Source: Leptolyngbyaceae cyanobacterium JSC-12
Lineage (GTDB): Bacteria; Cyanobacteriota; Cyanobacteriia; Leptolyngbyales; Leptolyngbyaceae
NCBI GenBank assembly: GCA_000309945.1
Contig: CM001633.1
Span: 4,877,793-4,941,792 of the forward strand
DNA: 64,000 nucleotides
Direction: 5' to 3'
In this document: in pieces, positions 39,253 through 47,668 of the stretch
Layout of the letters: each line of letters opens with the position of its first letter
Numbering within the stretch: the first letter of the stretch is position 1
Notes under the pieces: model-generated
What the model was told of the DNA's origin: nothing
The model's database searches: none
The model's input: the letters and a program-made list of their open reading frames with translations, nothing else
Program-made: the position numbers and the translations under genes

Positions 39253-40409
39253 TGTGTCCTGTGGAAGCGCTATTTTCTGGAATGACTGTTCAAGAGTATG
39301 GCTTCTTCCGTATTACCCATGATGCCGATTTGGAGGGGCAAGAATACGAGACAGATGATTGATTGCTGGCGATCAAGCAGGAACTACGAAAGCGTCGGCT
39401 GGGCGGCTCTGCAGTATGGCTTGAGATCCAATTCACAATGCCCGATTCGTTACGTATTCCATTAGTTGAGGAGTTTCAACTTACTGCAAATGATGTCTAT
39501 GAAGTAGATGGAATTCTTAATCTCAAGGATTTGTTTTCATTTCTGTCATTGCCTCTCCCGGAACTTAAAGATGCACCCTGGGTGCCGATAATTCCACCCA
39601 GACTTAAGCAGGTGAACAAATTTGAAACGGAAGAAGCATTTGAAAAACAAGAAACCTTAGAGGATATTTTCTCGGTCATTCGTCAGGGCGATATCTTAGT
39701 GCATCATCCTTATGAATCGTTTACTGCAACGGTTCAGCACTTTATTACTCAAGCAGCATCGAATCCAAAAGTCCTGGCAATTAAGATGACGCTGTATCGT
39801 ACATCTGGTGACTCGTCGATTGTCAGAGCGCTCATTTCTGCTGCTGAAAATGGCAAACAGGCTGGAGTGTTAGTCGAACTAAAGCTCGATTTGATGAAGC
39901 CAACAATATTGCTTGGGCGCGTAGACTTGAGGCGGCTGGAGTGAATGATGAATGCCCTCGTTGATCCTGCAATAATCCGCACGCTTTATGAAGCCTCGCA
40001 AGCAGGCGTTGAAATTGATCTAGTGGTTCGTGGAATATGTTGTTTACGTCCAAGTCTTCCTGGCATCAGCGAAACGATTCGAGTCGTTAGTATTGTAGGG
40101 CGGTTTTTGGAACACTCCCGCATTTTCTGGTTCCATAACAATCGACAAGAAGAATTCTATATTGGGAGTGCTGATTGGATGACCCGCAATCTCGATCGCC
40201 GCGTAGAAGCCGTTATTCCAGTTGAAGATCCTAAACTGGTTCAGCAACTCAAAGACGTCATGACGATTTTGATGGCAGATAATCGTCACGCCTGGGATTT
40301 GCAATCCGATGATACCTATATTCAACGCCAACCCACTGCCGACGAGGAAGAACGCAGTGCTCAAGTCATTTTGATGCAGAAAGCAATAGCAGCCTCTGAG
40401 CAAGAGTAA
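39253..40409 (+). pseudogene. ppk1: Polyphosphate kinase remnant (truncated, frameshifted, internal deletion)
   Basis: The frame from about 39253 reads FSGMTVQEYGFFRITHDADL, matching the PPK1 N-terminal region, but a TGA stop follows at 39358. Translation reopens at once with LLAIKQELRKRRLGG and continues through EVDGILNLKDLFSF, SLPLPELKDAPW and VLAIKMTLYRTSGDSSIVRAL, all PPK1 hallmarks. At about 39890 a one-base deletion shifts the frame. The following frame (from 39945) reads [20 protein letters not shown] to the normal C-terminus, but it joins directly after RRLEAAGV: the segment that should contain the catalytic histidines (KTH and the NYNPKTA region) is missing. So 5' truncation, stop, frameshift and an active-site deletion have all occurred. 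Function is lost. Confidence 0.88.
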
Positions 40410-44703: not shown

Positions 44704-45726
44704 TTGAGTCGGATTGGAGTTGTGGCAATTGGGCGTAATGAAGGGGATCGTCTACGCCGTTGTTTGAAGTCGGTCGTGCAAAGGGTTGCCCAGGTTGTTT
44801 ATGTGGACTCTGGTTCGACAGATGGAAGTGTGGAATTTGCGCGATCGCTTGAGGTAGAAGTTGTGGAACTGGATATATCCATTCCATTCACTGCTGCCCG
44901 TGCTCGCAACGCTGGATTTGAGCGATTAATGGAACTGCATCCACAAATAGACTACGTCCAGTTTGTAGACGGAGATTGTGAAATTGTTGATGGTTGGTTA
45001 GAGCGGGCACAGCAAGAACTCGATACCCGCCCAGAGATTGTGGTTGTATGCGGTCGTCGCAGAGAGCGGTTTCCAGAAGCCACACTTTACAATCGCCTTT
45101 GCGATATTGAATGGAATACTCCCGTTGGAGAGACAAAAGCCTGTGGTGGCGATGCCATGATGCGTGTATCTGCACTGCGAGCCGTCAACGGATACAATGC
45201 CACTTTGATTGCAGGCGAAGAACCTGAACTGTGTGTGCGGTTGCGGCAGAATGGTGGCAAAATTTTTCGCCTTGATGCCGAAATGACCTTACACGATGCC
45301 GAAATGACTCGATTCAGTCAGTGGTGGAAGCGGTCAGTTCGTGCGGGATATGCCTACGCTGAAGGAGCTTGGCTCCACGGTGCTCCACCTGAACGACATT
45401 GGGTTAAAGAAACACGTAGCATTCGACTCTGGGGCTTGTTGATCCCAGCAGTGGCTCTATTCTCAGCTTTACCTAGCAAAGGACTGAGCCTGATATTACT
45501 GGCAGCATATCCTTTGATGGCATATCGAATCTATCAATATGCTTGTCAGGCTGGACTAGCTCCGCGCGATGCGTGGTTATTTGGCGCGGCTTGCATGTTG
45601 GCAAAGCTCCCCCAAGCTCAAGGACAACTCAGATTTTATTGGGGCAAACTGCTAAAGCAACCTTCCAAACTCATCGAGTACAATACGCCGTCACAAGCGA
45701 ATTTTGCTGCTAAAGATTTATCGTAG
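44704..45726 (+). CDS. Family 2 glycosyltransferase
   Basis: A 340-residue GT-A enzyme starting SRIGVVAIGRNEGDRLRRCL. The donor-binding region has VVYVDSGSTDGSVEFARSL, and the metal-binding acidic motif is FVDGDCEIVDG. The acceptor region is AGEEPELCVRLRQNGG, and a C-terminal hydrophobic helix (SLILLAAYPLMAYRIYQYA) suggests membrane association. Start is TTG 44704 directly behind a near-perfect AGGAGGT at 44692-44698. No ATG lies in frame nearby. It is the first gene of the polysaccharide region. Confidence 0.9.
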   Translation: MSRIGVVAIGRNEGDRLRRCLKSVVQRVAQVVYVDSGSTDGSVEFARSLEVEVVELDISIPFTAARARNAGFERLMELHPQIDYVQFVDGDCEIVDGWLERAQQELDTRPEIVVVCGRRRERFPEATLYNRLCDIEWNTPVGETKACGGDAMMRVSALRAVNGYNATLIAGEEPELCVRLRQNGGKIFRLDAEMTLHDAEMTRFSQWWKRSVRAGYAYAEGAWLHGAPPERHWVKETRSIRLWGLLIPAVALFSALPSKGLSLILLAAYPLMAYRIYQYACQAGLAPRDAWLFGAACMLAKLPQAQGQLRFYWGKLLKQPSKLIEYNTPSQANFAAKDLS

Positions 45727-46030
45727 AAGACAATTTAATGTTTTTTGTGTAAAGCGCTGAAAAGGATTCGTGGAAGTATCTGAAATCAGGGTGTAATGTT
45801 TTGATACCCGTGATTTTGGTGAGTATCGTTTAATACTTTCTTCTACGGTTGAAACACAATTACCTAATTCAAAAGAACTATCCAGTGAATAATTAATAAT
45901 TTAATAGATTGCTGGTTGGTTTACTGCATTGGTTAACTGTTTCAATAGTTGCGAAGTTTTGGTAAGCCGAATGGGCACTATACATTAAAGGCAACTTCTA
46001 GCCCATGAGTTTATAGGAAATTTGGGTGAA
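45727..46030. other. Intergenic region
   Basis: AT-rich spacer between two glycosyltransferase genes; no gene or hairpin stands out. It likely holds the promoter of the fused transferase gene. Confidence 0.4.
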
Positions 46031-47668
46031 ATGGCTAATTATTCCTTGGGTTCAATTCTGTTGCGTGAAGGCTTAATTACTGAGAGCCAGCTAAACTCTG
46101 CCTTAGAAAAACAATTTCAACAAGTTGAAACGGTTGGTTGGCAGTTGCTTGGAGATATTCTCGTAGACGCAGGCGCAATTAGTAGAACAGAATTACAAGG
46201 CGCACTGGATAGACAAGCGAAACTTTATGACTTGCAGTTTTTTAATGCTGCTCCCCACCCTTCAACAATTAGTTTGAGAAAACGTTTCATTGATATCGCT
46301 GGCGCGATCGCAGGGTTAAGCCTGACGGCAATTGTTCTACCGTTGGTTGCGATCGCCATTTATATCAATTCCCCAGGCCCCGTTTTTGTAGCCCAACCAC
46401 GAGTTGGTTTACGCGGCAAACATTTTCTCCTCTGGCGGTTTCGTACCACAACTCCCAATGCAGAAGCTTTAAGACTACACGTTGCCCATAAGAAAGGGCA
46501 TAAGCTGTTTAATCCAATTGATGAACCTGGTATTACATTTGTCGGCAAGATCTTGCGTCGGTTTTATTTGGATGAACTTCCGCAGTTTTTCAACGTTTTA
46601 ATGGGTGATATGAGCCTGGTTGGAACCCGCCCTCCCACTCTCGATGAAGTTAAACTCTATTCCACAAGCGATTGGCAACGGTTAGTTGTAAAACCTGGCA
46701 TTACAGGGCAGTGGCAAATCAGCCACCGAAAATATCGTATGAGTTTTGAAGAAGTATTAAAAATTGACTTTTCCTATATTGATGGGTGGAGCCAACGGCA
46801 AGACCTTAAGATTCTAATTAAAACAGTCCTTCATGTGCTGTTAAGCCCGGTGCGTGCTTTCTATCCGCGATCAACCGCTCCCGCTTATAGCGACTACGTT
46901 AATATTCTCAATGTTTCACTTGATAATGTCTCTGCTATGCAGTTGTTAGAACGGTTGCAGCAGGGAGTTGTTTTCACTCCAAATGTGGATCATTTAATGA
47001 AGCTACAAAAAGATCCTGAGTTTTTTAAGACCTATTTGAATGCAGATTATCGAGTATGTGATAGTCAAATTCTAATGTACGCTGCCCGGTTTCTCGGCAC
47101 CCCCTTAAAAGAAAAAATTTCAGGTTCGGATCTTTTCCCAACGTTTTGTCGATTTCACCGAAACAATGAGGAAATTACTATTTTTCTTTTAGGAGGTGCT
47201 GAAGGGGTGGCTGATCGCGCCAGAACCAAAATAAATAGCAAAATTGGTCGAGAAATTATTGTTGGTGCGCATTCTCCCTCCTTTGGTTTTGAGAAAAATC
47301 AGCAGGAATGTTTAGAAATCATCGAAATGGTAAACCAATCTCGGGCAACGGTTCTTGCTGTAGGGGTTGGAGCACCAAAACAAGAAAAATGGATCGACAA
47401 ATACAAGCATCAATTTACCCACGTCAAAATCTTTTTTGCCGTAGGTGCCACTATTGATTTTGAAGCTGGAACAGTGAAGCGGGCACCTGTTTGGATGAGC
47501 AAATTGGGAATTGAATGGCTTTACCGCATCTATGCGGATCCAAAGCGTCTATGGAAGCGTTATCTGGTAGAGGATCTGCCTTTCTTCTGGTTACTCTTGA
47601 GGCAAAAGTTAGGCAGATACAATCCTCCCCCCTTTGGTTCTTGCGAAGATTTCTTGACACATAAGTAG
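46031..47668 (+). CDS. Three-domain fusion: MshEN-like + phosphoglycosyl transferase + WecG/TagA glycosyltransferase
   Basis: 545 residues. Residues ~1-75 resemble the MshEN (type II secretion ATPase N-terminal) module: LGSILLREGLITESQLNSAL and LGDILVDAGAISRTELQGAL, two copies. Residues ~85-280 are a monotopic phosphoglycosyl transferase: hydrophobic anchor IAGAIAGLSLTAIVLPLVAI, SPGPVFVAQPRVGLRGK, and RRFYLDELPQFFNVLMGDMS with the catalytic Asp-Glu pair, then LVGTRPPT and KPGITGQWQ. Residues ~290-545 are a WecG/TagA/CpsF glycosyltransferase: VVFTPNVDHLMKL and GVGAPKQEKWIDKY, VGATIDFEAGTVKRAP. It could make the lipid-linked first sugar and add the second. Two starts are possible: ATG 46031 or TTG 46022; ATG is chosen. 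Confidence 0.85.
   Translation: MANYSLGSILLREGLITESQLNSALEKQFQQVETVGWQLLGDILVDAGAISRTELQGALDRQAKLYDLQFFNAAPHPSTISLRKRFIDIAGAIAGLSLTAIVLPLVAIAIYINSPGPVFVAQPRVGLRGKHFLLWRFRTTTPNAEALRLHVAHKKGHKLFNPIDEPGITFVGKILRRFYLDELPQFFNVLMGDMSLVGTRPPTLDEVKLYSTSDWQRLVVKPGITGQWQISHRKYRMSFEEVLKIDFSYIDGWSQRQDLKILIKTVLHVLLSPVRAFYPRSTAPAYSDYVNILNVSLDNVSAMQLLERLQQGVVFTPNVDHLMKLQKDPEFFKTYLNADYRVCDSQILMYAARFLGTPLKEKISGSDLFPTFCRFHRNNEEITIFLLGGAEGVADRARTKINSKIGREIIVGAHSPSFGFEKNQQECLEIIEMVNQSRATVLAVGVGAPKQEKWIDKYKHQFTHVKIFFAVGATIDFEAGTVKRAPVWMSKLGIEWLYRIYADPKRLWKRYLVEDLPFFWLLLRQKLGRYNPPPFGSCEDFLTHK

Follow-up and report, generated by a model that had tools for sequence, protein, structure and literature searches.

A cyanobacterial fusion of MshEN-type, phosphoglycosyl transferase and WecG/TagA domains as a candidate sensor-linked enzyme of exopolysaccharide synthesis

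Control by cyclic di-GMP (c-di-GMP) is well described for synthase-type polysaccharides and less so for Wzx/Wzy pathways, whose post-translational control is called incompletely understood in a 2025 report in which a response regulator acts on the initiating phosphoglycosyl transferase, PGT (PMC12802240; sources given by PMC number are cited from excerpts). A gene at positions 46031 to 47668 of a 64,000-nucleotide stretch of Leptolyngbyaceae cyanobacterium JSC-12 (assembly GCA_000309945.1, contig CM001633.1, positions 4,877,793 to 4,941,792; the whole stretch is called the window) raises the question of whether such control can be built into the enzyme that starts the chain. An earlier note, made from the sequence alone, had read the gene as a fusion of MshEN-like, PGT and WecG/TagA domains that would start a lipid-linked oligosaccharide, add the second sugar and be controlled by c-di-GMP. 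The three-domain architecture is real, rare and conserved. The sequence and predicted fold of the MshEN-type part, the conservation of its ligand contacts, the intact residues of the WecG part and the kinship with XssM, XssN and XssP of Synechocystis are likewise regarded as established from sequence comparison and modelling. It is tentatively proposed, with a confidence that falls somewhat short of one half, that the product would be a glycosyltransferase bound to the membrane and fused to a sensor, acting early in the synthesis of a synechan-like (Wzx/Wzy-type) exopolysaccharide, at its first steps, with its MshEN part binding a cyclic dinucleotide.

One gene with three domains

The coding sequence of the fused protein (545 amino acids plus stop, plus strand, as are all features given below) is a single open reading frame (ORF) that starts at 46022 (TTG) or 46031 (ATG) and runs without internal stops to 47668; a methionine occupies the ATG position in 16 of 16 aligned relatives. 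The domains follow in the order that had been claimed, MshEN-type (residues 5-62), monotopic PGT (residues 84-270) and WecG/TagA (residues 338-511), the last two being recognized by Pfam and the first by NCBIfam, PDB sequences and predicted fold. The full-length AlphaFold model reached summary scores of 87.1 for the predicted local distance difference test (pLDDT) and 0.57 for the predicted template modelling score (pTM).

The survey of this architecture suggested in the earlier note was carried out on 388 genomes of the class with a limit of E<=1e-110, and found the whole three-domain ORF in eight of them, from two families, f1 and f26 (G000, G002, G011, G013 and G015 in one; G204, G234 and G245 in the other). 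An additional fusion, in G001, is truncated where its contig ends, with MshEN and the larger part of the PGT present. An assembly chimaera or a frameshift might have joined separate genes, and WecG does occur without MshEN or PGT in 20 of the 29 loci examined. However, locus L009 carries the gene intact, at 87% identity and with the same neighbours as in the window, full-length copies recur in the eight genomes, and the linker between the domains can be aligned among homologues. Such an artefact is therefore so improbable as to be negligible, and a split into two genes is ruled out. Outside the close relatives, PGT and WecG were found in one ORF (E<=1e-3) in none of 76 loci (L013-L088), drawn from the best 80 of 279.

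The MshEN-type domain and its putative ligand

Residues 1-66 (46031..46228) match the NCBIfam model NF053729, 'cyclic di-GMP-binding domain-containing protein, MshE-related', with 46.2 bits against a cut-off of 38. The match consists of two stretches, which in the genome search both align within positions 2-26, in the first half of the profile, and the model is found at E<=0.01 in 16 of 16 relatives; the fused relative L120, scored as a whole protein, lies slightly below the cut-off (36.9). With phmmer, the N-terminus retrieved PilF (8.7e-6), PilB (1.5e-4) and MshE (3.3e-4) from the PDB. AlphaFold2, run on residues 1-85 with an input of three sequences, predicted four helices (mean pLDDT 78.9), and the fold matches of this model include 5htl and 8pdk. 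The best was c-di-GMP-bound MshE, 5htl_B (Z 9.8, root-mean-square deviation 2.7, 60 residues aligned), followed by three c-di-GMP-bound entries of PilF GSPII-B (Z 9.3-9.7, 57-58 aligned) and, lower, by Xanthomonas PilB (Z 6.5-6.8), a fourth PilF entry, 9glg (Z 6.2), and unrelated folds from 4.8.

These fold scores call for caution. The fold tool warns that Z values below about 13 can be common for helical bundles, even unrelated ones, and the best Foldseek E was 0.036. The assignment rests on the 37-39% identity over the structurally aligned part and on the sequence searches. Pfam found no match to MshEN-type models at E<=10, its single hit being DUF4388 below the cut-off of that model, so a Pfam test alone would have opposed the assignment. 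The expectation that profile searches of the N-terminus would find MshEN thus held for NCBIfam, PDB sequences and fold, which all agree on this type of domain, and failed for Pfam; the accompanying statement that MshEN is a c-di-GMP module in other proteins is correct. The domain itself is common, since NF053729 exceeds its cut-off at one more site in the same genome and in five of 14 control genomes.

The window domain keeps LG, both Leu and the Gln in each of two 24-residue half-motifs. In half-motif I, residues 5-28 (46043..46114; SLGSILLREGLITESQLNSALEKQ), Ser stands for Arg and Gln28 is retained; in half-motif II, residues 39-62 (46145..46216; LLGDILVDAGAISRTELQGALDRQ), Leu stands for Arg and Gln62 is retained. 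They are separated by a spacer of ten residues (46115..46144), the canonical length being five, with a near-invariant Trp37 that is present in 19 of 21 relatives. These 21 comprise nine three-domain proteins (one cut by a contig end), seven MshEN-WecG and five MshEN-PGT proteins; L123 was excluded, its N-terminus being identical to that of L010. Gly7, Leu21, Leu25, Gln28 and Gly41 are invariant among them, and the other contacts are found in most (L6, L55 and L59 in 18 each, L40 and Q62 in 19 each). Mean entropy was 0.49 over the 12 contact columns, lost Arg positions included, versus 1.79 for the rest, and no random set out of 20000 was as extreme; the result was the same, 0 of 20000, without both Arg positions. 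The two Gln, which serve ribose and phosphate binding, are conserved more strongly than any other pair among 28 polar positions; of 20000 pairs drawn at random, 43 were as extreme. All these counts are guides only, because related sequences are not independent.

Several features weigh against binding. Arg, Lys or Leu is found at position 1 of motif I in none of the 21 relatives, which carry S, A, T, F, V or C there; at position 1 of motif II the residue is L in 18, M in one and R in two, leaving 19 without Arg. Hence, of the residues R, K or L expected at the start of both motifs, the window protein has a fitting Leu in motif II and an unfitting Ser in motif I. The spacer, which reaches 11 residues in L145, departs from the five-residue form; the equivalents of Gly18 and Gly47 are kept in just 10 and 13 of the 21; motif II of the window has Ala where the consensus is L/V/I; and the Leu contacts stand out less when compared with hydrophobic columns (456 of 20000). 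Each of the hydrophobic residues conserved in MshE is worth more than 10-fold in binding, and changes of Arg9, Asp12 or Gln32 cost about fivefold at most (PMC5013675), so the retained Gln is a hint and not proof. In PilF GSPII-A, a non-binder, the lack of binding is due in part to the Ser with which motif II begins; reversion to Ser, in a construct also keeping Ala at the third position, abolished the binding that had been regained (PMC12002112). No neighbouring GGDEF or EAL gene was recognized, mostly by eye, among the ORFs of window 24-64 kb. On the favourable side, the genome encodes nine GGDEF domains.

It is conceivable that in this clade the MshEN fold has ceased to bind nucleotides and works as a structural or docking module, for an XssM-like partner, a co-polymerase or a dimer interface. 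This is a substantial possibility, although short of probable. The loss of Arg from both motifs, the Ser of motif I, the doubled spacer and the unconserved G18 and G47 equivalents would all fit, and GSPII-A offers a case of the fold being retained without binding (PMC12002112). However, GSPII-A has lost both Gln, whereas Q28 and Q62 persist here in 21 and 19 of the 21 relatives while other polar positions drift. Moreover, the Leu of motif II is compatible with tight binding: PilF GSPII-B has Lys and Leu at the Arg positions and a Kd of 6 nM, its binding is lowered 158- and 77-fold by Gln to Glu changes, and its authors widened the consensus of position 1 to R/K/L (PMC11731258). The modified pocket might also sense another ligand, a cGAMP-type (cyclic GMP-AMP) dinucleotide or a uridine nucleotide, which we consider quite improbable. 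MshEN does bind cGAMP, if less strongly than c-di-GMP (PMC5013675), a role as a sensor of uridine monophosphate has been proposed for the additional domain of WbaP (PMC10942596), and position 1 and the spacer are both variant in the present protein; but its sequence gives no pointer to any named alternative, and at its contact sites the Gly and Gln correspond to those of proteins that bind c-di-GMP. Judged from the sequence, the chance that the window domain binds c-di-GMP is about one half, and control by this nucleotide is plausible. The mechanism suggested in the earlier note is supported in part. For its c-di-GMP control, the difficulty is that neither RLG motif has its Arg: motif II has the Leu seen in the binder PilF GSPII-B, but motif I has Ser.

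The transferase domains and their surroundings

The monotopic PGT domain (Bac_transf, PF02397; residues 84-270, 46280..46840) scores 180.2 bits against a cut-off of 27 (E 3.6e-53). Its alignment with WbaP (2.1e-27) runs through DELPQ and places the catalytic Asp-Glu pair, whose presence had been claimed correctly, at D181-E182 (46571..46576), in conserved columns. There are 37 positions at which 92% or more of 95 other PGTs agree, and the window domain retains 33 of these, D181-E182 and R176 among them. R176, five residues before the dyad, takes by our own counting the place of PglC Arg88, which together with Arg145 is important for undecaprenyl phosphate (PMC10519829); L091 has Gln there.

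The WecG/TagA region (residues 289-536, 46895..47638; Pfam core 338-511) is XssN-like. It matches PF03808 (Glyco_tran_WecG) with 198.8 bits against a cut-off of 27.4 (E 7.2e-59), TIGR00696 with 124.6 against 69 and the sequence of 7mpk with 1.3e-35, and retains 18 of 18 conserved WecG positions. D344 (47060..47062) aligns in conserved columns with the Asp of 'VPDGSG' in 7mpk and is presumably the position of the catalytic base. Its step would presumably be the addition of the second sugar. At their N-termini, the WecG proteins of six loci of other cyanobacteria (L011, L012, L106, L110, L113, L129) have one to three copies, counted by eye, of a motif of the form LYxxFRxAVLxSSAN.

In the mechanism envisaged, the monotopic PGT would be seated in the inner leaflet and, if active, transfer sugar-1-phosphate to undecaprenyl phosphate. 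The WecG/TagA domain would then put the next sugar on the lipid-linked sugar and, since it would be held beside the PGT, the intermediate could remain with the protein. The MshEN-type bundle would be the input, binding a cyclic dinucleotide, most likely c-di-GMP, in its modified pocket, and the ligand-bound form would shift the activity of the transferase part. We infer this membrane topology, two-step catalysis, ligand binding and direction of control from the domains and their predicted fold.

Part of this scheme is called into question by the PGT itself. At four positions that are K, M, D and R in 95 of 95 other PGTs, the window domain has R136, T140, E165 and G167, and three of these positions (136, 140 and 167) deviate in six of six PGTs of the window's family. 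The fused PGT also diverges fast: its identity to those of G002, G011, G015 and G013 is 86, 71, 67 and 67%, while that of the stand-alone STAS-PGT of the same genomes is 96, 85, 87 and 83%, which amounts to two to three times the differences. In an f26 fusion, L121, Asp-Lys replaces Asp-Glu, Ala replaces the Lys of KFR and the loop is shortened, deviations that may be errors since they come from a single genome of 82% completeness. Given the changed residues, the fast divergence, the Asp-Lys pair and the absence of the PGT in a sister genus, the fused PGT may not be a working initiator. The view of the earlier note, in which one and the same protein would begin the oligosaccharide and also attach its second sugar, is possible, with these four points standing against it.

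According to another explanation, the fused PGT would be degenerate and only a membrane anchor, WecG would be the sole catalytic output, fed by a stand-alone PGT, and MshEN would gate the second sugar. We regard this as a serious contender that nevertheless falls below an equal chance, and it is compatible with either view of ligand binding by MshEN. In addition to the substitutions, the divergence and L121, it would account for the MshEN-WecG genes without PGT of seven of 388 genomes, and the JSC-12 genome has six PGT domains, five besides the fused one. However, the 33 retained positions include D181-E182 and R176, the four residues that changed in the window are all intact in five of five MshEN-PGT proteins and two of three f26 fusions, and selection still acts on the PGT. 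The ratio of nonsynonymous to synonymous substitutions (dN/dS) is 0.056 for the PGT and 0.021 for WecG between G000 and G002, where the synonymous distances (dS 1.48 and 2.19) are near saturation, and 0.083 (dS 0.78), 0.048 and 0.087 for PGT, WecG and MshEN between G204 and G234; for MshEN between G000 and G015 it is 0.199. The PGT is therefore constrained, yet less than usual, as its dN/dS is low but its divergence fast, and because of these signs of relaxed constraint it may be the WecG step on which control acts.

The locus resembles the synechan (Xss) cluster of the Synechocystis plasmid pSYSM, whose protein names were assigned from cluster order and locus tags in PMC8205485. Identity is 61% between WecG and XssN, 47% between the PGT and XssP, and 61% over 330 amino acids between XssM and the upstream family 2 glycosyltransferase (Glycos_transf_2, 44704..45726), so that homologues of the three proteins are adjacent in the window, as expected for a synechan-type locus. 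A genome-wide search found XssK-like (33%) and XssB-like (43-44%) proteins elsewhere. Synechocystis mutants lacking xssM, xssN or xssP no longer form blooms and are suppressed in the accumulation of exopolysaccharide, and XssP is named the priming transferase (PMC8205485). XssP and four other cyanobacterial PGTs that were scanned have an N-terminal STAS domain; STAS precedes the PGT by Pfam in L179, L191 (JSC-12 itself) and L217 (XssP), and by eye in L180, L181, L184, L185, L189 and L196. As all PGTs scanned for it have STAS, a signalling-type domain before the PGT is not rare in cyanobacteria, and MshEN looks like a swap for the STAS part. A literature search for the STAS-PGT fusion returned nothing. 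Downstream, the window contains dTDP-rhamnose genes, named by eye, and glycosyltransferases, and the output would most likely be the first steps of a Wzx/Wzy-type exopolysaccharide.

Elsewhere in the window, at 39363-40409, a polyphosphate-kinase-like sequence (by eye) is split between the in-line ORFs 39363-39944 and 39945-40409, where L009 has one ORF of 721 amino acids; it is possibly a broken gene.

Distribution, history and known systems

Related architectures exist as well. MshEN-WecG without PGT stands in the seven of 388 genomes already mentioned, all of one sister genus; Stenomitos frigidus (L010) has this architecture. MshEN-PGT without WecG occurs in at least four of 291 genomes (five genes), and WecG-MshEN, with a different WecG family and C-terminal MshEN motifs, in at least three of 291 (G212, G125, G116); both counts are lower bounds, only matches with loci having been classified. 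Against the MshE-related model, the two WecG-MshEN proteins that were scanned scored 88 and 98 bits. In a differently drawn set of 244 genomes of the phylum, two passed a search with the MshEN profile at E<=1e-12, the window and G419, the latter with two shorter frames. The titles and abstracts searched named no MshEN-PGT or MshEN-WecG protein, a statement limited to that literature; excerpts of PMC5013675 mention fusions of MshEN with glycosyltransferases and name exopolysaccharide synthesis in Methylobacillus.

A tree of PGT domains (50 rows, E<1e-25, identical rows dropped, 13 hand-picked loci of other phyla) placed 14 of 14 MshEN-linked PGTs on one side of a branch (support 99/99) and, inside this group, the three-domain PGTs and the cut one of G001 on one side of another (100/96). 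A tree of 47 WecG rows grouped the fusions of f1 with the MshEN-WecG genus and with two genomes that have WecG only (94/84) and separated the f26 fusions from f1 with moderate support (91/74, 92/86), so that there may have been a single fusion followed by losses, two fusions or a transfer of the gene. The PGT tree disfavours an MshEN-WecG ancestor; as the MshEN-linked PGTs lie on one side of a branch, an order with MshEN-PGT first and the PGT lost later is favoured. The simplest reading would be that WecG joined MshEN-PGT and that the PGT was later lost in two lineages, MshEN having joined separately, to judge from the sequences, the C-terminus of another WecG family. Gene order agrees with one common locus for the window, its relatives and the sister genus, since an XssM-like gene precedes the fusion in the window, G002, G013 and G015 and a lone WecG in G019, and Ddl precedes MshEN-WecG in four sister-genus loci and lies downstream of the fusion in the window. 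The neighbours of the f26 fusions are not those of the f1 or sister-genus loci.

The survey brought up other proteins with these domains. In L153, L156 and L199, WecG is followed by four C-terminal MshEN half-motifs that are near canonical (L199 by eye), and by sequence these are more promising than the window protein as candidates for control by c-di-GMP. MshEN is combined with an M23-type peptidase region in L148, which matches MepM-like models, and by eye in L151 and L155; such fusions would connect the motif with the cutting of the cell wall. Small MshEN proteins of 70-98 residues (L150, L152, L158, L160) end in a W/R-R-G-W-like tail, also present at the C-termini of an FHA-MshEN protein (L149) and of the WecG-MshEN proteins, all by eye. 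Alg14-like, STAS and PGT domains are found in one protein in L187 (666 amino acids, with a GT28 C-terminal domain as well) and L173 (8762-10993, 743 amino acids), where the gene adjoins one for WecG-MshEN.

A bolder version of the proposal, which we think rather unlikely, is that a variant MshEN, with Leu and perhaps the spacer Trp replacing the Arg stacking, gates the entry steps of a Wzx/Wzy pathway, control having moved from a PGT that decays into a membrane anchor to the WecG-type transferase. If true, this would be, within the literature searched, the first enzyme initiating a polysaccharide to have control by a cyclic dinucleotide built in. A sensor fused to the initiating enzyme would make such control directly testable in vitro with one soluble domain and one membrane protein, and the natural series STAS-PGT, MshEN-PGT, MshEN-PGT-WecG, MshEN-WecG and WecG-MshEN lets one ask which step is under the signal. 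It might also bear on how cyanobacteria turn on the slime of mats and blooms.

As a kind, the fusion belongs with the MshEN-regulated glycosyltransferases, such as NfrB, and the regulated PGTs, such as WbaP and EpsZ. NfrB of E. coli, a published case of c-di-GMP and MshEN controlling a glycosyltransferase (PMC8669469), likewise has MshEN fused to a polysaccharide glycosyltransferase, and the NfrB and PRK15489 models also match 16 of 16 MshEN domains of the window group. However, the transferase of NfrB belongs to family 2, and its MshEN is C-terminal and fully conserved (PMC8669469), whereas the window protein has a variant N-terminal one with PGT and WecG/TagA. MshE and PilF GSPII-B share with it the predicted fold, the LG and Q positions and the Leu clusters; the window domain differs in a motif I without Arg or Lys and a ten-residue spacer with Trp, and is followed neither by the C-terminal subdomain of MshEN nor by an ATPase. 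WbaP-type large PGTs are initiating enzymes with an extra domain that has been proposed to be regulatory (PMC10942596), there a transmembrane bundle with a DUF, here a 66-residue MshEN together with an added second transferase. TagA/TarA (7mpk) belongs to the same WecG/TagA family and its C-terminal E-W-R-P-R positions are retained in the window, but it is a stand-alone protein of 244 residues, while the WecG/TagA part described here is a fused domain known from sequence. The nearest characterized relatives found, XssP and XssN of Synechocystis PCC 6803, are encoded by two genes and XssP begins with STAS, whereas in the window one gene does for both and begins with MshEN.

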